Part shown: piece after piece, positions 7,840 to 64,000 of the stretch
Layout: each line of letters opens with the position of its first letter
Position numbering within the stretch: position 1 is the stretch's first letter
NCBI GenBank assembly: GCA_963669155.1
Contig: OZ022581.1
Location: 15,268,335-15,332,334, forward strand
Reading direction: 5' to 3'
Source: Arbacia lixula
Lineage: Eukaryota > Echinodermata > Echinoidea > Arbacioida > Arbaciidae
Length of the DNA: 64,000 bases
Notes under the pieces: generated by a model
Database searches by the model: none
The model's input: the letters and a program-made list of their open reading frames with translations, nothing else
What the model was told of the DNA's origin: nothing
Translations under genes and position numbers: made by a program

Positions 7840-8414
7840 GGTGAGTTACGACAGCGTCATCAGGAGAGACAAGGCCTGGGATGCAGAGAATGGACAAGAG
7901 AGAAAAGAAAAAGGAGGGAAGAGAGCGTAGAGGAGAGAAAGTGGGAGAGAGAGAGAGAGAGAGATGAGGGGAGACAAAGGGACAGAGAAAAGGACAGAGG
8001 GGGGGGGGGGTGGAGAAAGAGGGACAGAGGACAGAGGGAAAGAACAAAATGAAAAAGAGAGAAAGGGAGGGAGAGAGGAAAAGAGAGGAGAAGAGAAAGA
8101 GACAGAGACATAAAAAGAAACAACGATATACAGGTAAGATAACAACCAGAGGGGGCAAAGAGAGACAGAGACAAATAGTGTGAGAGGGAGTGGAAGATGG
8201 GCTGAAGGAAAAGAAAGAGAGAATGAGAAAAAGAGGGAGGGAAAGGAGAGAGAAAGAGAAAGAGAAAGAAGAAGAAAGCAATACAAAGATAGCCAAGGAA
8301 AGACAAAGTAAGAGAGGGGGGGGGGAGGGAGGCACCCCAAAATGGAAGAGAGTGATGTTCGATGGAGAGAGAGAGGGCGAGAGAGGGTGAGAAAACAAAA
8401 CAAAGTAGAGAGAG
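7840..8414 (+). repeat. Purine-rich low-complexity region
   Basis: About 575 bp of GAGA/GGGA/AAAGA words with G homopolymers near 8,000 and 8,320. Together with the minisatellite that follows, it leaves all three minus-strand frames open for 267-310 codons. This is an effect of stop-poor CT sequence and not a gene. Confidence 0.9.
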
Positions 8415-8715
8415 GTCGAGAGCACAAGAAAAGGGAGAGAGAGTGCGAGAGAGCAAGAAAAGGGAGAGAGAGAGGGTGAGAGGACAAGAAAAGTGAGAGA
8501 GAAGGTGAGAGAACAAGAAAAGTGAGAGAGAAGGTGAAGGGACAAGAAAAGTGAGAGAGAAGGTGAGAGGACAAGAAAAGTGAGAGAGAGTGTGAGAGGA
8601 CAAGAAAAGGGAGAGAGAAGGTGAGAGGACAAGAAAAGTGAGAGAGAGAGAGCGAGAGAACAAGAAAAGTGAGAGAGAAGGTGAGAGGACAAGAAAAGTG
8701 AGAGAGAGTGTGAGA
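8415..8715 (+). repeat. 29-31 bp minisatellite, about 10 copies
   Basis: Tandem units of the type GTGAGAGGACAAGAAAAGTG followed by AGAGAGAAG. The central copies are 29 bp and the first ones 30-31 bp. Variants alternate between GGACAAG and GAACAAG, and between AAGTGAG and AAGGGAG. The array probably expanded out of the surrounding GA tract. On the minus strand it reads as a repeated Leu/Ser/Phe peptide, which is not accepted as coding. Confidence 0.9.
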
Positions 8716-10615
8716 GACCGAGAGAGGAGTGAACTGCTGGAGGAGGTGGGGGGATCCTGTGACTCTTGTTTCAGCCAAACAAAATTAGGAGTTTCGATCG
8801 GGGGCAGAGAGAAACGTAAGAAGGTGGTGCTGCGGGGGGACAGGGGTAATTAAATGCCAGTGAATACATGATTCTGGGAGGCATCATCCACCGCTAATGA
8901 GATCAAACACAAAAACTCGGGGCCAGATCGGGGACAGAATTACAGATGCTCCCAACAACTATCTTGTCAAAACACAAAAACAGAGTTCTCGTCATGAAAC
9001 ATGCCCCCCACCAAATACATCATATCCATGTTTCCTCTGCGGCGATGTTAACCGTTTTTATTCTGCACGCACGATACAAAGGAAAGCCAAATTAACATCG
9101 GTCATGAATCCAATGTCAGATAAACGACGCGACACATTGCACAGGAGTCTATCTGTGGGATGTGGGTTAGGTTGAAACCAGGAGTTTGCTGACCAATGAA
9201 ACCAATGCTCCAAAAAATGTTCACCCAAACCCTCAAGGACATAATGCGGAGACAATAGAAGGATAGGCTTGTTCTGCATACACTAAAACACAACACTATT
9301 AACACTGTGTTAATACACACAAATCCCATAGAGCACCATAATGTCAGCCACACACACGGTTAAGGCTGCTTCCTCATCCCACTTTACGGCTAAAATCATG
9401 ATTTTTGCCTCAAAGAATGGGGACGAGCTTGAAATATATTTGATAGCGAAATGTTTTTTAATCTACTTAATTTTTGGGAGGGTGGGGGGAGGGGGGTAGG
9501 AGGGTGTGTTTTTAATTGAAGGTTTGTTACTATTTGGACTAGCCATTTTGGTCTACCCCACATTTTGTCTTGTCGCAAGACATTGAAATTATCCTCACCT
9601 TAAAGCTGAACTTTATACAAACTTAATCCCAACTAAACTTTCAACTGTATCATAAACCTTTAATAAACCATAAATTTAACCCCAACCTGATGCTCCATGA
9701 GCCAAGTTTTAAGAGTCAGGTTGTACAGTTTGTGACTACTGACTCTATAACAGCGTGTAGGTTACTTGCAGGTAGAGCAAAGTTAGCAATTGCACAATAT
9801 ATTCATACAAATATGAAATAAATTGAACAGACAACAGCATTAATAACGCGTAAGTGGACTGCTCACAGCTTGTAATGCCCAGACAAAGACCGTAAACCCC
9901 AGGACTCATTTCTCTTCAAAATGTAAACATCTTGTTCAAATATTAGCATGCCAGAAGTTGTTGTTGAAGTTGAAGTTGAAGTTGTTTAGTTGTAACTGGC
10001 AAGCACTTTCAGAGTGTTTCCAAGCAATTCATATTTTTAAATAGAAAGTGCTGCATCTTTATTTAACATAAAACTGTGTTTGTCAATGGAATACAAGCAA
10101 GTAGTGCACACAATGAAAAACATTACACATTACTGTATCAAATCAGGAAAGCAAAGATGAATGACATGATACAGAACAATTCAGGTAGAAATGTTTTTAC
10201 AAAAATGAAAATGTAAATGAAAGCTACACATGATGGTAAAAAAAGTTAAAGGCATTACAAGCTACATGAATCCAAAATAATATTAATATAAACACACATG
10301 AGGGAGGCATTTCTCATCAAAGAAATTATAAATAAAGTGTGCTTTGTCAAAAGATAACAAACATGTTTTTAATCTTGGCAACTTTTTTTTTCTTACAAAG
10401 CATCAACTCCCGATCATTTTCTGTGCCATGTCAGTTTGCAGTACCTCAGAAGAAAAAAAAGATTCCCACCCTTTCATCATTTTCCCATCACAAATCAAAA
10501 TATCAAAATAAACTTCAGGAGAAAAATGTCTATCTAATCACTGCCCTGAGCGAAGACACTTTCTACTTGTTTTCATTCTGCATGCTGCCTGGCCCTCCCA
10601 GACACAAAGGAATTA
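8716..10615. other. Unique non-coding stretch
   Basis: No supported gene. It holds a G-rich run near 9,476-9,500, a short GAAGTT repeat near 9,965-9,985 and AT-rich DNA. The frame at 8,897-9,175 (92 codons) lacks domain or splice evidence. Confidence 0.4.
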
Positions 10616-51790: not shown

Positions 51791-52159
51791 GTTTAGTCTG
51801 AGTTTTATCATTTTCAGAACCGGCCGATACGCGAATCAAGGTATTTTGGGGAACTGAGAGAAGATAGCCTTAGTCTTGGATTATAGACTAAAAATTATAA
51901 CACGAATGTAATTGATAATCCCTCGATTTGTTCTTGTGTAAGCTTTTGACTGTGTTGATCTTGGTAATGTGGATGGGGGCTGGGCCCGGGGCAGGCTGAG
52001 GGGCTCAATATTCTTTTATATGCATTTGACTTGGGCTGATTTACACATGAATGCTATTTTGAGCATAACATTTAGACTCTAGGCTTACACTTAGACTTAG
52101 CTCTTTGGTGACAAAATTTGAAAAAGGACAAAACTGTCAAAATATTGTAAAGCACTCAT

Positions 52160-52695
52160 TATTCCAAAGGTTCGAATAATCCGAAGGCTCGTTATTCCGA
52201 AGGTTCACTATTCCGAAGGTTCGTTATTCCGAAGGCTTGTTTACTTCGTTAGTCCGAAAAAGAAATAAGGTCCGTTATTCCGAAAAAGAAATACTGTAAG
52301 GTGCATTATACCAAAGGTTCGCTTGTCCGAAAACGTAAAAAGGTTCATTAGTGCGAAAACATAAGGTTCGTAAGTTCTAAAACGTCTTCCCGGTTTTCCC
52401 GGCTTAGCTACAGATTATTTCAGTTTCAGACTAATGAACTTGTTTCGTTTTCGGATTAACGCACCTTCTAAGTATTGTACCTTATTTCGTTTTCGGATTA
52501 ACGAACCTTCGGAATAGCGACCACCATGTTATTTTCATATTAACGAACATTCGGAATAACGAACCCTACTTTATTTTCGGATTAACGGATCTTCAGAACA
52601 GCGAACCTTTGGAATAACGCCGCACATGCTCGGATTAATAACGCACCCTCTTTCGTTTTCGGAAAGCAAACCTCCGGAATAATGAACCTTCAGAA
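52160..52695. repeat. Inverted array of about 18-bp GTTCGTTATTCCGAAG units
   Basis: From 52,160 to about 52,380 the strand reads units of GGTTCGTTATTCCGAA and related TTCGTTAGTCCGAAAA words. From about 52,430 to 52,695 it reads the reverse complements (TTCGGATTAACGAACCTTCGGAATAACGAA). The two blocks face each other around a unit-free centre. Units vary a lot, so the array is old or shuffled, and each unit is partly self-complementary (TTCGGAATAACGAA). There is no coding content. The class is unknown to me. Confidence 0.9.
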
Positions 52696-53501: not shown

Positions 53502-56500
53502 GTGAGGAAGGCTTTATCCACATTCTTTATATTTGATTTGAGACATATCGTGACTTGTCTAACTCTTTGTCCTTTCAGGTGAGAAGTGCTTTATTTGTAT
53601 GAGATTTACAAGAACTTTCCTAACTCTTTGTTATGGCATTTGTCAGCTGTTCACTCAAGTTCCTAGGATTTATTGAATAAAGCTTATTCATGTCTGCTTT
53701 ATATGAGAACTGAGGTTGATCGTTTACATCACCCATACTCCAACCAAGATAAGTTGGACTTAACATATTAATGTTCTGAAGATAATTGACAAACAAATTG
53801 GAAATAAACAGTAAAATTTGTCATGAGTGTGTGGAGGAGGTACATGTAGCAAATGCTGCTTTTACAGTTTCATACCAGAGTGGTGTAAAAATAGAGTACC
53901 TGTTGGATGCAATTAAGATGTAGTGCTACAGAAGGCTTGTGGGGATGTCCTGTAAAGAGGATGTTAAAATGACTCCTAATTAATCTTGGTACAAAGGTAA
54001 CCACTGTGTGGAATAATGGAGAGGCAAAAATGCACATCATAAGGAGAAAGAGTGGGGGAAAGAAACAAATATTGTAGAGATCAATTCAAGAAAAATGTGG
54101 AAGAGGCCTTGCACAGGAGCTGTGTCTTGGAGGGGTGATATGAAGAGTCTGACTGAAGGAAGGATGACAGGTGCGACCCACTTGCCAAAGAACAGAGTTC
54201 AATGGTGTGCTCTTCTGAAGACCACAACAATCTCTGAAACTGTACTAGCTAAGGATGATGATCATGAAGACCATAGTGGTACACTGGTACTTATGGCACT
54301 CAATCTGAATGCTCAAAACAACTACTTAGAAAAAAGAAAAAGATCAAGTACAGTACAAGAAACCTGAAGCTGAGGTCATTGGATCATCAAGAAAGATAGA
54401 CACAATCACAGTGGTTGTGTCTACAGTTCACATTACACTTCAAGCATATCGTATAGCTTTCTGGGCCGTATGTCAGCCAGTGTGGCACGCTGTGCACCTG
54501 GAGTGCCCTGTACGTACACCACTCCACACACTGGACCAGCTCCGGGAAATACGGCCCTCTGGGGGAAACAAGCGGGACGATTTGTGGCGGAGCTCGCTCT
54601 CTCTTGACCGATATGCAGTACCTGCTCAGAACTGAGAGTGGAGTGCTCTAGCTAATAGCTGTACACAGGGGTCATAGATTTTTTGTGTGCATGTTTTGAA
54701 GGAACGTGATGAATTATTTGTATATTCAGTCACTTTCATATATGGGGGTACGATCATATGTAAAGTTCTGATCATCAATGTGATGCGTGGTGCATACTAC
54801 AAAAACTAGAATGTTTAAACTGTGCCCCAAGTAAAATAATCAATATCTGCATTAGTCCAAAGGGTTGATTGTAGACTGTAATGGGTAATTGTAAGTTCTG
54901 TAGAGTGAGAGAGATTTGTATCAAAACAACCTGTAATGTTCTTAAACTTGACTTACCTTTTTGTCTGCTTATTCACTACTTAAACATCCTTTGGAGAATA
55001 GAATATCGAGTTTGGATTACAGTCATAACTTTGCCCCAAGAAATGTATGCTTGATATTTTTGTCATTTCACAATTCTGCATATTAATTCAGACTACTTAA
55101 GTAATGATATTTCTTGTTTTGACTGCAGGCACTGGGCTCCTCCCAGACCACGGGCCACCTAGTCTTCCCATTTCAGCTCTCACATTGCCTTCAGAGGCAT
55201 CTAAAAACTAACGAGGCCAGCTTCCCTTTACCGGGATTCTGCATCAGAACAGTGTCAACGTCATGTGGGGGAGCATTGCAGAAAAAGAAAGCTGTGGCTG
55301 AGAGGAAGACTAGCTCAGATGGACAGGAGGTGACAATAGGAAAGGAAGGTAGCTATAGCTTAAAATGGATTCTCGTATATTGGCAAATCCCTGATAAAAC
55401 AGCCCATAGCTTAAGTACACATCCTGAATGTAGATGATGATGAGTATGTCTTTTTATGCTTCCACCATCAAGTGGCTGGTGGCGTTATCATTTACTACAT
55501 GTATTCTGACTCTAGTGGGTTTGTTATGCAGTTCCTTTCTTCAAGTCCTGATCTTCCCTGCTTTGTTGTACCCAGCATCACTCTTCTGCTATTGCCTTTC
55601 ATTCTTTCTTTCAGAAGTGTGTCGGTCATCTTTATTTGTATAGTGATAGCGTATGTCCTTTGGGGAGAGTAACTCTTCAAGGTTCAAGGTAACATAGAAG
55701 GTGTGAAGTCAAATTAAATGTAATGAGACTCACCATATCAAGCCCTTTAAAAAAGGAACATTAAATAGTTTAAGCCAGCAAATTGCTCCTAGCTAGCATT
55801 GTCAAGTAGTTTTATATGTAACATTTCTTACTATTGGCTTGAATTTTTATGTTATTGAACTTTAGTGTAATCTAACATATTTAGAGCATGTAACTATCGT
55901 TACTCAAGCTTTCCTCTTTATGAGTGGGAAATGTTTGCTGCAATAAAAGTTTTAATGTTACTATTTGATGAAAGCCACTTTTCTTTTATCCACCATAGTT
56001 GCCCAGACGTCCAAAACTGCATCCTATGCTGGCATCATCCTGTTAGGGTTTGGGCTTATAGGTGAGTCATTTAGGACTTGTGTATGTGTAACTTCTCATA
56101 TTATAGGTGATCGCAATCATGCATACCTTTTATGAATTTTATTTAAACAGAATATAAGTTACTCTTTAAGTAAGGAAAAGAATCATTCATTCTTCAATTG
56201 TGCATTGCCAAGTTTACTTGTTCACTAAGATGATACTCTGGGCATGCACGTGTAGAAAAAACTTATAACCTAGTTTCCTCTTAATCCTAAATATGTTACT
56301 CATTGCGTATAAATCGCTAGTGATAATTGTTTATATCACAATGTATGGTCAACAAGGGATCTAAGATTACAAAGTTTCGTGCACCACTGCATCACTTCGT
56401 CAGGTGTGATACAAAAAGGTTTCCTCTTTATAGACCGTTACAGATGGAACACCCTTCTTGCAGGCCTAACCAATAAATTTGATAACATATGTTTATAGAA

Positions 56501-59500
56501 GCACATGAAAACTATCACTGAGATTTAAAATTTAATATGCATTTGACAAAGAACCCAAACCTTTTAAGCAAACTCAAAAGGAGTTTGTTTTAATGCATTA
56601 ATTGTATCCTAAAAGACTGTTCAGTTTTAAATTCCACAAACTGTTCTTTTTGTAAATGAATGTTTTTTTTTTACACAATTTGGTAATGTTAGCAAAAGAC
56701 ATACACAACCTTAAAAACATAAATAAAGAAGTGAGTATCTCATTTACCTGGAGACTAGTTCGTAAGCTAGTAAAAACAAAGTCTCTGTGACTGTGATGTC
56801 TCCTGGTGACTACCTTTGACTTTGAGGAGTTGCAGGAAATTCATTTTTTTTTTGCAATTGTTTTCTAAAGACTTTTCCAATCTCCAGCTGGTCCTAATGT
56901 TCGTGCCAATTATGAAAAAGTTCTGGTCTTCTTTCATTTTCTGAATTAACCTGTTCTTTTCGGAGCCTGCATATTTATGCGAGCTTGCTTTCCTCTAGTC
57001 AGATACTAAGCTATGCTTCACCCGTGTAATCTGCTTTACAGACATTAGACGACAAACTTACAGTACTATATAGATCACAATTAAACCACAACCCTAACCC
57101 TTTGGTTACTGAATTTCCATGGGAAATTTAGACGTCCTAACTGGACCAGGATTTCATAAGCCCTAAAATCTTACTGTGAGCAACGTAGGATCTATTAGTT
57201 TAAATGGTGAGTTGCGGCAACCTTCTTTTTTGTTCTCTTTTAACAGGCCTGATGTTCTACACAGTTGGGCAAGAGCTTTTTTCATCCAACAGTCCAAATG
57301 GCATCTACACAAAAGCCTTCAAGCTATGCAAGAATAATCTTGAGGTATGTAGGGATCACTGAAGAATAACACGAAAGGAGATGAAACCTAATAATAAGTT
57401 GAATTTAATACAATTAGAAAAATATTAGAAACAGACTGGATAAAAATTAAGAGCAATGAGATGTTGTATTCTCCTGTGATTTGGTGCACTTCCTTGCAAT
57501 AAAGCTCCTTACAATGGGTAACTGAGAGTATTGCTGAGTTTCATGTTGCTTGATAAAAATCAATTGATTTTATAATGTATACACTGCTCTCACCATGGTT
57601 ATGTAGTTGGTACATTCACCTGTATCTAGTGTCACTATCTGTATCACTTTCAAAGGGTGGAATGCATCCTGCATCTATGGGTTGTTGCTAGTTGGGTAAA
57701 CCTCAGACAATTTATGGTTTCCATGAGTAAGTCATTGCTGTGACAGGCATGAATGAAGTTTGCTTACGTATCGAAAGTAGTCTATTGTGCTGCATAAACA
57801 TTCATGTGGCGGAAGGAATGATAGCATTGTGGTCATGTTGATATACAATGGAGCGCATAAGTTTGGAAAGTGGCAAACTTGTTGTGGCCAATTTCACTTC
57901 AATAAGCAAAAAGTAATAGGTATCTTCCCTGTTTCTGAGTCTTGCCTGCTAACGCTTTACGCTATCATCTCCAACTCGAGTGGAGTGTATAAATCTAGAA
58001 GCCCCTGTTCATGCTTTCATGTGCATGTAGATTCAAGACAGCCTGGGAACCCCGATCAAGGGCTATGGAGAGATGACTAGGAGGAAGAGAAGGAGGCACG
58101 TCAGGTAAGATGGGGGATTTGTATGCGCCATTGAGGCATTTCAACACTAGTTTTACCTACCATTCCCATAGAGCAGTATTGAGTCTGGCAGAGAAGGAGT
58201 TAATATGTGGAGCCTGCCATCTACAGTATGTATATATTTGTTCAAATTGGTTGGGTACTTGTATGTAGTTATTATCTACGGTTCAATGTTTGAACGTCTG
58301 TTCTGGTATGTGAGTGAGTATGTAAGTGAGGGTTTGTTTATGTCCAAATCCTACTATAATTTGTATTTTTAAATTATACAAAGGTACTAGACATGAACCA
58401 GTGTATCGTTTATATGTTCTTGCATAAAAACTTAAATCGATGGAATGGAATTTAAAAGAAATGAGAGTTAGACGTTGATTAACACAATATGAACATACTC
58501 ATGTGAAATATTGTGACTTTGTGATTTTTTTTGTTGTTGTATTAATTTTGTTTTTGACAGTCATCTGGAGTATTCTCAAGGAGGAGTCAATTTCATGAGG
58601 ATGAAGTTTTACTTGGAAGGACCTGAAAGGAAGGCTACAGTTCATTTAGAGATGAAGGAGGTGAGAATTGTACTGTTGGCGCTGACCTGGTCTTTTATGT
58701 GGGAAAAGGCTCTTAGAGTATATGACATAGAAATGCCAAACCGGTTACTTAGCATTATTATGATGATCCACATTCTGTAGCTGCCATTTAATGAATAATT
58801 AATAACAGGACTAAAAACTGTCAAGATTTTATGTTGCTGACATGCAGAAATTTTCATCTTCCAAGCATTTGTCACACAGATTACTGTCTCATCTTTCATC
58901 AAGTCCTACTTCAATCCAGAAAAATTTGCCACAAACTCATCTTTGCTATAACATGAAGAAAGGATAGTCTGTTACAAAATAGTAATTATTCTTCTTCAGT
59001 TTGTATTGTTGATTCCATTTTAGATTTACCTGAGGAAATTAAATGTCCACACTTTAAATCCTGATGATTGCTGCTTCCATTGGTATTTCCATGACTGGGA
59101 GCAACACCTGAAAAAAATTAAAACTCAATATTTATATTTGAGCACCATCATGGGGCAGGAGTGTTGAGCTATTTCACCTTTGACAACTTGTACAATTGTT
59201 TGGAGTAGATTGTATGTTTTCACACCACTGCAAGGCACTGCTGAAAACAACCTGATAAAAACATGAATCTGGATTTGTGTTATTATAAACATATAAAACA
59301 CAGCAAGATGCACAAGAATGTAACAGCCAGGAAAGAGAAAACTTGAAATGTGCTGAATCAGACATATCAATTATTTTAACATTTGAGAAGATTTAAAATG
59401 AAATCATTAGCTTAAAGGTCGTCCATCCCTTTTGCAGACCTAATTCTGAAAGTTCCCTGACTTTGTCACCATTTTTCAGAGAGAGTGGCTATCTAACCTT

Positions 59501-59870
59501 TCCCTGGAATCGACAAAGCGTGATATTTGGTTTTGAGGAAATAATCTTCGATAATTGGTTAAGCTTTCTTTTTTCCTACCCTGAAAATAGTTAATTCTCA
59601 TTGAAAACTAGTTAGATTTCCATTTATTCTACAGGAGTTGTAGTACCTTTCAGCTTAAAATTTCACAGTTGGTATCCCAAAGATACGTGCTAAATATGTG
59701 CAAACTTTCATGAAGTTTGCAGATGGGCCATCCTTAACCCCAGGACTACTCCTCCCATTCTTCCAACCTGTCCTTTGCAGAATGAGAGTGGGCGGTACGA
59801 GTACCGGTATCTGTTCGTGGAGCTGGATGGGTACCCTCAGCGCACCATCATCTTGGAAGACAACAGATAA
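53412..59870 (+). CDS. TIMM21: TIMM21, Tim21 subunit of the mitochondrial TIM23 translocase (7 exons)
   Basis: Tim21 is an inner-membrane protein that contacts the TOM complex from the intermembrane space and links it to the TIM23 presequence translocase. In animals it also helps hand over respiratory-chain subunits. Exons joined: 53,412-53,501, 55,129-55,348, 55,999-56,061, 57,247-57,344, 58,031-58,104, 58,561-58,660 and 59,781-59,870. All have AG/GT borders, and phases agree through every junction, giving 244 residues (human about 248). Residues 1-103 are basic and presequence-like. One membrane segment spans about 113-131 (IILLGFGLIGLMF). The family signature follows: QELFSSNSP (133-141), IKGYGEMTRR (166-175), VNFMRMKFYLEG (191-202), RYEYRYLFVELDGYP (220-234) and the LEDNR end. 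Exons 3-7 are certain by family match. Exon 1 is inferred from a CAG/GTGAGG donor in the right phase. The ATG at 53,412 has a strong context (GACGATGG); an in-frame ATG at 53,313 would add 33 residues. Confidence 0.9.
53456..53662 (+). repeat. Degenerate triplicate around the TIMM21 exon 1 splice donor
   Basis: CTTGCCTAACTCTTCGTCC ... GTTCAGGTGAGGAAGGCTTTAT (53,458-53,516) is followed by CTTGTCTAACTCTTTGTCC-TTTCAGGTGAGAAGTGCTTTAT (53,552-53,594). A third copy has CTTTCCTAACTCTTTG ... GTCAGCTGTTCACTCAAG (53,615-53,660). Copies 1 and 2 both carry the CAGGTGAG donor. The second donor would leave the wrong phase for exon 2, so only the first fits the gene model. Confidence 0.75.
54450..54645. other. 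GC-rich patch in the first TIMM21 intron
   Basis: About 190 bp with short inverted words (CCAGTGTGGCAC and CACTCCACACACTGG flanking TGTACGTACA) and a 45-codon frame from an ATG near 54,471. It could be an alternative first exon or a small inverted repeat element. The only phase-0 donor in it (TTTGTGGCG) is weak. Confidence 0.25.
55129..55348 (+). CDS. TIMM21: TIMM21 exon 2
   Basis: Opens after GACTGCAG and ends at AAGGAAG/GTAGCT, phase 1. It encodes about 73 residues of poorly conserved linker, including LVFPFQLSHC and a Lys/Arg-rich KKKAVAERKTSS. In human Tim21 the same position before the membrane segment is also basic and variable. The frame is fully open and in phase with exon 3, which supports it. 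Confidence 0.7.
55999..56061 (+). CDS. TIMM21: TIMM21 exon 3 (membrane segment)
   Basis: 63 bp between ACCATAG and GTGAGT, phase 1 on both sides. It encodes VAQTSKTASYAG and the hydrophobic IILLGFGLIG that starts the single transmembrane helix. Confidence 0.9.
57247..57344 (+). CDS. TIMM21: TIMM21 exon 4
   Basis: 98 bp after TTTTAACAG and before GTATGT. It completes the membrane helix (LMFYTVGQELF) and encodes the start of the intermembrane-space domain (SSNSPNGIYTKAFKLC), closely matching the family's ELFSS-SP-IY-KA-C pattern. Confidence 0.95.
57598..57795 (+). repeat. Dispersed repeat, copy 2, in TIMM21 intron 4
   Basis: Same orientation and block order as 495-690. It lies between exons 4 and 5 and does not touch splice sites. 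About three quarters of aligned bases agree by eye. Confidence 0.7.
58031..58104 (+). CDS. TIMM21: TIMM21 exon 5
   Basis: 74 bp between ATGTAG and GTAAGA, encoding IQDSLGTPIKGYGEMTRRKR and RRHV. The IKGYGE-TRR-RR-HV motif is the most conserved core of Tim21. Spacing from the Cys in exon 4 to this core equals that of the human protein. Confidence 0.95.
58561..58660 (+). CDS. TIMM21: TIMM21 exon 6
   Basis: 100 bp after TTTTGACAG and before GTGAGA. It encodes SHLEYSQGGVNFMRMKFYL and EGPERKATVHLEMKE, the central beta-sheet of the domain. It corresponds to human VRFTEYVKDG-KH-C-VKFYIEG. Confidence 0.95.
59781..59870 (+). CDS. TIMM21: TIMM21 exon 7, C-terminal exon with stop
   Basis: Starts after CCTTTGCAG and encodes NESGRYEYRYLFVELDGYP, then QRTIILEDNR and TAA. 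The last five codons plus stop are also the first unit of a 25-bp minisatellite. The human protein continues four residues past EDNR, so this one ends slightly early. Confidence 0.95.
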   Translation, partial: NESGRYEYRYLFVELDGYPQRTIILEDNR

Positions 59871-60275
59871 TCTCATCCTAGAAGACAACAGATAATCTCA
59901 TCCTTGAAGGCAACAGATAATCTCATCATTGAAGACAACAGATAATCTCATCCTAGGAAGACAACAGATAATCTCATCCTAGAAGATTACAGATGATCTC
60001 ATCCTTGAAGACAAGAGATAATCTTATCCTTGAAAACAACACATAATCTCATCCTTGAAGGCAACAAATAATCTTATCCTGGAAGACAGCATATAATCTC
60101 ATCCTAGAAGACAACATATAATCTCATCCTTCAAGACACCATATAATCTTATCCTGGAAGACAACAGATAATCTCATCTTACAAGACAATAGATAATCTC
60201 ATTCTGGAAGACAACAAATAATTGCATCCTTGAAGGCAACATATACCCATAATCAGATTGGAAGACAACACCATT
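59853..60275 (+). repeat. 25-bp minisatellite starting inside the TIMM21 stop region
   Basis: About 16 tandem units of 25 bp (one of 26), each GAAGACAACAGATAA followed by TCTCATCCTT or a variant, and a final partial unit. Unit 1 (from 59,856) is coding: GAA GAC AAC AGA TAA is the conserved E-D-N-R-stop of Tim21. The rest is 3' UTR. Later units diverge mostly in ACAGAT (ACATAT, ACAAAT) and decay near 60,240. Because unit 1 is fixed by protein homology, it is the likely ancestral copy from which the array grew. Confidence 0.95.
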
Positions 60276-60400
60276 CATTTTTTAACGCTTCTTGTACTAC
60301 AGCAAGATGAAGATTAAATACCATTTGATACTGGTATTCAGATGTTGTATCATTGTCCTTTGTTAATCAAAGAAAGAAAATTATGTTGCTAACTTGCATG

Positions 60401-60406
60401 AATAAA
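60401..60406 (+). terminator. Candidate TIMM21 polyadenylation signal
   Basis: AATAAA about 530 bp after the stop, just past the minisatellite and before the SINE. Further AATAAA words near 60,905 and 61,022 are alternatives. Confidence 0.4.
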
Positions 60407-60519
60407 TACCTATCTTTCCATTTTAAAATGTTTTGGCCAAACAACGTTGGATAGAAGTGCCATAGATGAAGCACACCTGATGCCAAACTGTTATACCAGC
60501 TTGACACCAGATAGACTGG

Positions 60520-60730
60520 GTAGAGAGTGTGTGCTACTCCAAATATTATACTATTTGTGGAGGGGTCTTGGTATGGAGGTCATCCCTCGAGGATAAGATG
60601 AAGGTTGCAGCCTTTGTAGTTTTGAACCATGATAAGACCTTTGTGTCCATCAGAACAAAACGCATTATCCACATTGCTGCTCTCCACCCAGGAGTACAAA
60701 TACCTGGTAGGATGTACATTGCAATATGTG
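60520..60730 (+). mobile_element. Degenerate SINE, second family copy
   Basis: AGAGAGTGTGTGCTAC matches the head start near 32,716. ACGCATTATCCACATTGCTG, CTCTCCACCCAGGAGTA and ATACCTGGTAGGA match the body at 32,790-32,850. The internal B box is not clear, and an extra segment separates head and body. Confidence 0.6.
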
Positions 60731-61230
60731 TGAGCTTGACCAAGTGGCAGTGAATGCTTATGAGTTAGAAATGTACCCTAGAAGAGGAGATGGTGAACAT
60801 TATATGTGCACAACTGTTTCTGGTTGCTATGAGTAGGGCTCTTGTCTGTTAAAACATATCATCAGTCTGTTATCAGACTTTCATTGGATAGACCACTACA
60901 TCAATAAAAATTAAATAAAAAAAAAGAAACTCATTATTCCAATTGGTGTTTGAGATCAAGTGAATCACCACTCTACTTAAATTGTTTTTTTAATGTCAAT
61001 CATGTGTTTTCCATATCTTTGAATAAACCATGTATTTGTTGGAGAGAATCTGATGCTGACATTTTGAGGGACTTTTCAAATCTTCCTTTTTTCCTTCCAA
61101 AGCATTGAGTCCTGATATTCTTGGAATGATTCTAGGAGTAATTTTGGTGTAATCGTCAAAAATGCAGATGGACACTCACATAAATGTCAGGGGAAAATGA
61201 ACAAGAAGTTTGGAATGCTGCATATCTTCC
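60731..61230. other. Non-coding spacer between TIMM21 and the retroelement
   Basis: AT-rich, with an A-rich run near 60,918 and no recognised feature. Confidence 0.4.
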
Positions 61231-61234
61231 AGTG

Positions 61235-64000
61235 TTAAGTTGTATGCAATCTAAAAAAATACTTCAAACTCAATGTGTGAAGTAAGATGCATTTATTGTG
61301 AAAAACTGGTGTTGGGGACCATACATCTTGGCAGTGTTCTTCCTCAGAAAGTTGTCTCACCCACTGTTGCCAAATCTCCTGTTCGCCATCTGGAATTAGG
61401 TCATCCCATCCTAACTTTTTTGCCGTCAATCTTTGCATCAAATGCTTAGCTTTCAAGATGAAGGGATTCAGGAAACCAAGCGGGTCATAAATGCTTGACA
61501 CAATGCTAAGCAATCCTCTCCTTATCAAAGGTTTGTCCTTTACCAACGTCCTGTACATCCCAGTTGATCCCCAAGGCTCTTTCAACTGGAAGTGGCTCCT
61601 TGTTTAAGGTTTAACCTTTAACTTGCTTAGCCCTCTCTTCCACTGGGATGGATTGAAGAACTTTGGATCGGTTGCTAATCCACTTTGTTACTGTAATCTG
61701 AAGCCTCCTTTCGCTAACAGACTCCTCAACTCAGCTGCTATTCTGATTGCAACATCTTCATCAGGCACACCAACCAAGCAATCATCCACATAGAACTTTT
61801 GCTTCACGATTCCAGTGACATCAGGGCTGAATTCAGATTCAAAGTCGTCGGCTGTCCTGCGGAGTGCATAACTGCATACACTGGGGCTCCAAGTTCCCCC
61901 GAACAAATGCACACACATTCTATAGATACGAGGGTCTTCTTTTCTGTTGCCTGTTGGCCACCACAAAATCTCAATACATCTTGGTCTGTGGCAGGCACAC
62001 GAACTTGGTGAAACATGGCTTCAATGTCGGCCACCAAAGCCACTGGAGCTGATGGAAACCTCAATAGCACCCTAATCAACCTGTTGGTAAGATCTGGTCC
62101 CTGATAAACCACATTGTTCAGTGACAAGCCTTTCCATTCTGATGCACAGTTGAAAACAGTCCTCACTTTACCAGGTTTCTGGGGATGGAATACGGGGTGG
62201 TGTGGCAAATACCACTCACATTCATTCGTTTTGTCCTGTTTACTAACCTCCTCAGCATAACCTTTTTCCATGAGTTCTACCATGCCATCTGCATACTTCT
62301 GAAGGAGGCCTTCACTCTCGGTTAGCTTTCTCCCAAGACTTTGGAGTCTCCTCTGCGCCATCCATGTGTTATTCTGGAGATCTGGAGGTCTCTTCTTGAA
62401 GGGAATAGGGAACTGATAATGACCATCCTCCATGCAGATACCGTGTTCTGATTCTGCTAGGGCCTTTACATTATTCCTTGACATTCCTCTTTCCTCCTTA
62501 AGAGGATCAAGTGTCTCAAGCTTCCAGAACCTCTCTAGCTGTCTCTCGAGACACAGATCTCCTCTGATGAATGTGTTTGTTACATATACCAGATTGTCCT
62601 CTCTACCAGCTGTGCTGAGTGCACCATGGAGTGACCATCTGGGGCACGTTCTGATTGCGTATGGTCCTATCACTCCTCATCTAATTTCTAGAGGCAGCAA
62701 AGCTTCTGGCACATGTTGACCAATAACCAAACCCACATTCTCTTCAGTGGCTAAAGGGACGTCATTCCCTTTTAGGTGGGTTAGTCCTCTTATGTCATCA
62801 ACCATGGCCATGTGCACACGTTTGATGTTGATATTGTCCCTTGTATACACACATGGCATCTTTATCTTTGTGCTGTTGTCTCCACTGTCCACAATCGGAC
62901 TCTGTGTAGCTTCTGGGTAGACAACACTTTCTTTACGTACAAGGGTTGTGAGCAACAGCTTCTCCTTAACTCCCTTGGCTCCAAGTCTCCTCGCTATTAA
63001 AGCTTGTCAAGCAAAACGTAGTTGTTGAACCGGAGTCCAGTAATGTGCAAGTCCACAGCATTTTCTGGCAGCCTTCCGCTTTCGCTCACACAGGCGCCAT
63101 AGGAAGCAAACTCTTTCTGCTGGCCCCTGTGGAACTACAAGAGGCTTCTGATTCCACACTGCTATTGTGTGTGTCACCCTCAGTCTTCTGGTCACCAGCT
63201 GGTTCTGAGATATGCAATAACTTGTTGTGTTTCCATGAGCAACCATCAACAGATCCAGTCCTATTGTTCTTACATGCTCCTATCATGTGACCTGTTCTCA
63301 AACAGTTGAGACATAGACCCTTCTTTCTGGCAAGCCATGGTCTATCTTTAGGAGTCAAGTCCTTAAACTGTTTACAGTCCCATAGCTTGTGGTTACCCTT
63401 GCACTGGAAACACCCTGGTTCAGCGGGCTGAGTGCTGGACGAAGTGGAGAAGGAGCCTCTGGTTTCTCCACTGCTGGAAGGTTTGCTTTGATCGCTCTTA
63501 CCACACATCAGTCCTCTGAAAACTGGGTCATTCATCTCGTCTGCAACTGCCCGCACAAAACATATCATGTCTTCAAACCCAGGGATTCTCCGCTGACGCC
63601 GAATTCTTAGACGTTCAGCAATTGGGAGAAGAACCTTCCGAGGTGAAAGTTCATGTTCAAACCCCATGGCTTGAAAGGACATCAAACACACACTCATGTC
63701 ATCTGCAAGCGCTCTCAAAGCACCTCTTTTTTGAGGGCCTATGTTCTTCCCACAAGTGATCTTTTCACAACTGGATCTCCATACCTCTCCTGCAACAGGT
63801 GCTTCGCCGTGGAGTATCCCTGCTTTGCTGGCATTAACAAGCATGGACTTATCAACCTCTTGGGCTCTCCTTTACAGTCGTGCAGGAGTCTAGTCAGCTT
63901 CGTTCTATCCTCAATTGGCGTAGTGTCCAGGCTATCTTCAAAGCTTCGCCAAAACTTCCAAAATCCCAATGGCTCTCCTTCATAGCAAGTCAATTCATTC
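61235..64000 (-). mobile_element. BEL/Pao-type LTR retroelement fossil (partial, runs off the window)
   Basis: Minus-strand element, gag first at the right edge. Recognisable parts in order: a gag domain and two CCHC zinc knuckles (about 63.1-64.0 kb), the end of the protease region with the family-typical IGQHVPEALLPLEIR (about 62.7-62.95 kb), reverse transcriptase with the FYVDD catalytic box (about 61.7-62.7 kb), and the Pao A17 region (SSIYDPLGFLNPF, about 61.2-61.6 kb). This order and these signatures are those of BEL/Pao elements. No integrase part and no LTR were seen in the window. It is broken, with several breaks, yet long stretches remain readable, so it is probably a relatively young insertion. 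The 5' end lies beyond the window. Confidence 0.9.

Follow-up and report, generated by a model that had tools for sequence, protein, structure and literature searches.

A 25-bp minisatellite at the stop codon of TIMM21 in Arbacia lixula, most likely grown from the end of the coding sequence

Minisatellites have units of roughly 7–100 bp, and some lie within genes, such as the VNTR in the 3' UTR of human SLC6A3 and the one in the last exon of CEL; many minisatellites have no readable beginning. Two further kinds of array invite comparison with the present locus: frameshifting tandem repeats in the coding sequence of human genes (PMC1273636), and tandem repeats derived from other sequences such as transposons (PMC6947457, PMC3389668). 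Among the papers listed for tandem repeats that overlap a stop codon, for the origin of such repeats, for TIMM21 together with tandem repeats and for VNTRs of last exons, none described an array of this kind, judged by titles and abstract openings, and a case in print is possible; no paper on the C-terminus of Tim21 in echinoderms was found. The array described here lies in a stretch of 64,000 nucleotides of the Arbacia lixula genome (contig OZ022581.1, positions 15,268,335 to 15,332,334; hereafter the window, to which all coordinates refer). As a minisatellite it is of an ordinary kind, but its location is uncommon and its likely seed can be named. In the reading that we prefer, to which we assign a probability of about 0.75, it is a mostly neutral minisatellite of the 3' UTR, seeded when the final coding bases of the mitochondrial import gene TIMM21 were duplicated in tandem together with the stop codon.

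TRF called head-to-tail units with a period of 25, 15.9 copies, 83% matches, and a score of 521 (59848–60245). Read in register, the array comprises 16 units (59848–60248) and a degenerate seventeenth that reaches to about 60270, in agreement with the "about 15 further units" of the initial annotation. Self-match at a lag of 25 was 0.785 within the array, as compared to 0.275 in the left and 0.242 in the right flank. The left edge is sharp, the match to the consensus being 23/25 at 59848 and 4/25 one register upstream, and it falls inside the last TIMM21 coding exon. The TRF call, the self-match and the sharp left edge confirm that a 25-bp tandem array is present at the TIMM21 stop; however, the start at 59853 proposed initially is not exact, as this position is located 5 bp inside unit 1. 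Variants of columns 8 and 19 of the unit are common to distant copies, a distribution which exchange or slippage would produce.

The consensus unit, searched with up to three mismatches in the 607-Mb assembly (590 contigs, the window being part of contig 6), was found in ten places, all ten of them in the array, while the reversed-pattern control gave 0 matches; these genome-wide counts are lower bounds. The remaining six units of the array (units 5, 6, 10, 14, 15, and 16) differ from the consensus by four to five bases or, in the case of unit 5, by an inserted base. A search of one assembly with the 423-bp stretch returned a single place, the array itself. The array is real and, as far as these searches reach, confined to a single locus. 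Since the unit was found only at TIMM21, it is not derived from a dispersed repeat. In the contig of the assembly that carries COX1 (15,740 bases), this gene uses 12 TGA codons for tryptophan and two AAA codons for asparagine at sites conserved as asparagine. ARAGORN placed tRNA-Arg and tRNA-Lys downstream of COX1; as judged by eye, a stretch resembling large rRNA lies ahead of this gene, and frames resembling ND4L and COX2 are found next to the two tRNAs and in the space that separates them. Such a code and gene order are typical of echinoderms of the sea-urchin or sea-cucumber type.

Other repeats also occur in the window. Remains of a retroelement are situated on the minus strand about 1 kb downstream of the array (61235–63871). 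Among the five open frames scanned in this region, the frame at 61238–61603 matched PF05380, the peptidase of Pao retrotransposons, with E 1.2e-15, and that at 61691–62020 gave a match to reverse transcriptase (PF00078) that is weak, falling short of the curated cut-off with E 5e-5; the other three frames had no match at E up to 0.01. Short tandem repeats with periods of 16, 32, 26, 23, and 42 are located at 52155–52607 and are built, as judged by eye, from a common motif (CGTTATTCCGAAGG) in both orientations. A GA-rich array of 29-bp units (11.5 copies), for which a period of 147 bp was likewise called, extends over 8379–8716.

Table 1. Positions in the window of the modelled TIMM21 gene, the repeat units and the features downstream
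Feature	Position	Strand	Remarks
TIMM21 gene, six exons modelled	55129..59870	+	AG/GT borders picked by eye; one open frame; Pfam TIM21
TIMM21 exons 1–3 (modelled)	55129–55348, 55999–56061, 57247–57344	+	
TIMM21 exons 4–6 (modelled)	58031–58104, 58561–58660, 59781–59870	+	
TIMM21 last coding exon	59781..59870	+	NESGRYEYRYLFVELDGYPQRTIILEDNR-stop
Unit 1	59848..59872	+	codes ILEDNR; TAA stop at 59868–59870, then TC
Units 2–16	59873..60248	+	within predicted 3' UTR
Unit 5	59948–59973	+	26 bp from one extra G
Unit 17	60249..60270	+	degenerate
Right flank	60271..60317	+	from GAAGACAAC of unit 17 open for 15 codons: EDN-TIHFLTLLVLQQDED-stop; TAA at 60315–60317
First AATAAA after the stop	60401..60406	+	likely poly(A) signal

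The spliced six-exon model of TIMM21 (Table 1) codes for 214 residues in a single frame through all joins; its first exon follows an AG and has no ATG at its start, and the 5' end of the model is therefore putative. The Pfam profile TIM21 (PF08294) matched the model with 149.5 bits (E 8.1e-44; curated cut-off 24.1), residues 74–214 aligning with profile positions 2–145 of 145 and thus covering the whole domain. The final arginine of the model sits on the last profile position (145/145). Truncation before IILEDNR lowered the score from 150.6 to 141.1 bits, a loss of 9.5 bits, and the alignment then ended at profile position 136. These values support both the assignment of the gene to TIMM21 and the statement of the initial annotation that unit 1 encodes a family-conserved EDNR-stop. 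They indicate that the ILEDNR end is an inherited feature of the family, the unit overlapping coding sequence that is conserved beyond this genome. Because IILEDNR belongs to the TIM21 family, and unit 1 is coding, the array most likely grew from the coding end of TIMM21, as had been proposed.

A sequence search of the PDB (E up to 1) yielded nine distinct sequences, five of which are Tim21 or Tim21 fusions (best E 0.0091); their alignments reach residues 135–204 at most and stop short of the C-terminus. The other four matches are unrelated to Tim21. Retrocopies of TIMM21 were not found in its own genome, where PF08294 matched only two exons of TIMM21 itself (three candidates scored). In addition, residues 89–201 of the spliced model, a part of the TIM21 domain, weakly matched the Pfam family Coa1 (PF08695) with E 5.6e-4 and 20.1 bits, short of the cut-off of 22.

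Among 13 hexamers scanned, the array holds only AATAGA (60188), and ATTAAA occurs at 60313. If the transcript ends at the likely poly(A) signal listed in Table 1, the array makes up about 70% of a predicted 3' UTR of about 550 bases (own arithmetic), consistent with the initial claim that it sets the length of this region.

The differences from the consensus in units 1 to 16 number 2, 1, 1, 1, 1, 4, 1, 3, 2, 4, 2, 3, 2, 4, 4, and 5, respectively. Units lying farther from the gene are more divergent (rho 0.71, p 0.002), and this also holds when only units 1–15 (rho 0.65, p 0.009) or units 2–15 (rho 0.70, p 0.005) are considered; here and below, p values for the array treat the units as independent, which they are not. 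The two differences of unit 1 jointly keep a leucine codon (TTG for CTT). The T6 and G8 of this codon are absent from units 2–5, and unit 1 is therefore not visible as a recent donor, contrary to the initial suggestion that the direction of growth can be read as outward copying from unit 1. Units 2 and 5 differ by a single inserted base. Closeness within the array does not clearly go with similarity of sequence (Mantel r 0.10, p 0.21), and no higher-order period stands out, mean distances ranging from 3.9 to 4.4 at lags 1–8. The gradient points to units that spread recently on the side of the gene and decayed on the other side, but it does not point to recent copying from unit 1.

Unit 1 had also been expected to be basal in a tree of the units, its nesting inside later copies being named beforehand as evidence against the proposed origin. 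In a FastTree phylogeny with midpoint rooting, unit 1 is indeed nested, within a clade of units 1, 8, 10, 13, 15, and 17 (support 0.915). This unrooted tree, however, is built on 25 sites (13 for unit 17) without an outgroup, and for that reason it is uninformative as to which unit is basal, even though the nesting is literally the outcome that had been named.

To assess the effect of the array on the protein, unit 1 was cut at each of its 25 positions and joined in silico to units 2–16, in register only and with all cuts weighted alike. The 375 simulated exchanges gave 26 distinct C-terminal ends, all with a stop within 11 residues (wild type, 7). The length of seven residues was kept in 343 products; 167 of the 375 ended in exactly IILEDNR and 208 differed, which means that the array could in principle do harm. 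The longest end, IILGRQQIISS, results from the extra base of unit 5 (nine products), and the other 23 lengthened products stem from unit 16, in which TAC replaces the stop and the frame closes two codons later. Exchange in register thus swaps the last residues of TIMM21 and moves the stop by four residues at most. Of the two effects on the protein that had been attributed to exchange with unit 1, a change of the C-terminus is borne out by the 208 altered products, but a real shift of the stop is not, given that most products keep their length and none exceeds 11 residues. Seven of the 25 altered ends were scored against the TIM21 profile, and each was cheaper than the loss of IILEDNR: the costs amounted to 0.1 bits for K, 0.6 for T, 1.3 for I, 1.4 for ENNT, 2.0 for EGNR, 2.4 for EDYR, and 3.4 for QDTI. 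Removal of the final R alone cost 1.6 bits.

The initial annotation had ascribed the inability of the array to extend the protein to a unit length that is not a multiple of three. This reason is wrong; extra units cannot extend TIMM21 because they are located after a stop. Division of 25 by 3 leaves a remainder of 1, so that successive units present the stop in successive frames. When unit 1 is entered in the two other frames, it reads SSWKTTDNLILEDNR-stop and HLGRQQIISS-stop, and across 45 entries (units 1–15 in three frames each) runs average 10.5 residues and reach 36 at most, with nine of the 45 ending in EDNR. The early stops in all three frames follow from the unit length, without sign of selection.

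All of units 2–15 carry a stop in the matching position (14/14; 13 TAA and one TGA). Under evenly strewn differences, such retention has a p value of 0.035, and p is 0.13 when columns 8 and 19, picked after seeing the data, are left out. The retained stops thus argue weakly against complete neutrality, and convincing selection on the repeated stops of units 2–15 was not found. The differences in units 2–16 comprise 12 synonymous and 20 nonsynonymous ones (expected synonymous fraction 0.19). Coding constraint on the later units was considered and dropped, as eight of the 12 synonymous differences fall in the hypervariable column 8.

The present stop codon might itself have been made by the birth of the array, although we regard this as unlikely. 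The older protein would then have read EDN and continued through the right flank (TIHFLTLLVLQQDED-stop), until the duplication junction supplied AGATAA, shortened the protein, and stranded the old tail about 400 bp downstream; a repeat would thereby have re-set the end of a housekeeping protein. The sequence TTGGAAGACAACA, located at 60258–60270 in unit 17, occurs on the plus strand of the window elsewhere only in unit 1 (59853). Its restriction to the two edge units fits such a history and would be expected, we infer, if homogenisation affected the interior of the array and left an older state at its edges. Similarity at the right edge ends abruptly after GACAACA, with CCATTCA in place of GATAATC, but a deletion cutting the end of the array would give the same picture. 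The tail at 60243–60330 scores 28 against the coding end (1 of 2000 letter shuffles as good), 22 against the consensus (10 of 2000), and 27 against the best stretch of the array; the comparison of 28 with 27 does not decide, and the same letters would arise if an ordinary unit lost 2 bp. The right flank is open for 15 codons in the frame of unit 17, as would happen by chance in about one case in two with even codon use (own arithmetic). At the last position the TIM21 model prefers R (150.6 bits) over T (150.0 bits), albeit by a small margin. Because the human TIMM21 protein ends in EDNRSQDD, the final R is probably ancestral.

Similarly improbable is a regulatory role of the array, with repeated protein-binding sites or an enhancer-like cluster of AGATAATCT, the copy number of which would tune TIMM21 output. 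Variation is far from even across the columns of the unit (0 of 20,000 permutations reach the observed value), a pattern which could reflect constraint and which is dominated by the hypervariable columns 8 and 19. In units 2–15, columns 20–25 together with columns 1–4 (ATAATCTCAT) form the least variable block of ten columns, with 5 of the 33 differences; AGATAA is presumably similar to the sites of GATA factors, and TAATCT to those of the Otx type. However, the unevenness was not significant when distinct variants were counted once (p 0.09 to 0.48), the quiet blocks giving p values of 0.48, 0.09, and 0.45 at widths of 8, 10, and 12, respectively. Predicted RNA structure does not favour a regulatory role either: 78 of 100 shuffled sequences folded as well as the array or better (z +1.0), and Rfam gave 0 matches at E up to 0.1 for 59500–61000. 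That the array came first and the C-terminus of TIMM21 was converted to match it is barely credible: unit 1 resembles the array (23/25 to the consensus) and tract exchange may run either way, but IILEDNR fits the end of the TIM21 model (9.5 bits), so the peptide very probably predates a lineage-specific array.

If the array was seeded by the coding end of TIMM21, as we prefer to assume, the first step would have been slippage or a short tandem duplication of some 25 bp spanning ILEDNR-TAA. Additional slippage, together with unequal exchange, would then have raised the number to about 16 copies and mixed variants between non-neighbouring units. As computed, gain or loss of a unit would leave the protein unchanged, the copies being located after the stop, and in-register exchange with unit 1 would leave it unchanged or alter its last few residues. 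The 5' edge may be preserved by purifying selection acting on unit 1, whereas decay proceeds at the 3' edge. The phenotype expected of such an array would be a variable length of the 3' UTR and an occasional substitution of a C-terminal residue.

The likely seed can be named because it belongs to the coding sequence of a conserved family, so that selection presumably maintains one edge of the array and the other is left to decay. This makes the TIMM21 array a natural case for the study of how arrays start and age. An array that overlaps a stop codon might also persist, as internal exchange costs at most a few end residues.

Like the VNTRs of SLC6A3 and CEL, the TIMM21 array consists of presumably transcribed units of tens of bases with spread variants, and its copy number is expected to be variable. 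In contrast to them, its first unit contains the final codons of a conserved housekeeping gene along with the stop, units 2–15 carry stops, and the seed can be named. With the frameshifting coding repeats of human genes (PMC1273636), the array shares a unit that is not a multiple of three and that touches coding sequence, but all of its units except the first lie after the stop, and its copy number changes without a shift of frame. Like the transposon-derived tandem repeats, as outlined in the corresponding titles and abstract openings (PMC6947457, PMC3389668), it has a recognisable source sequence; that source, however, is most likely the end of a protein-coding gene and not a transposable element.
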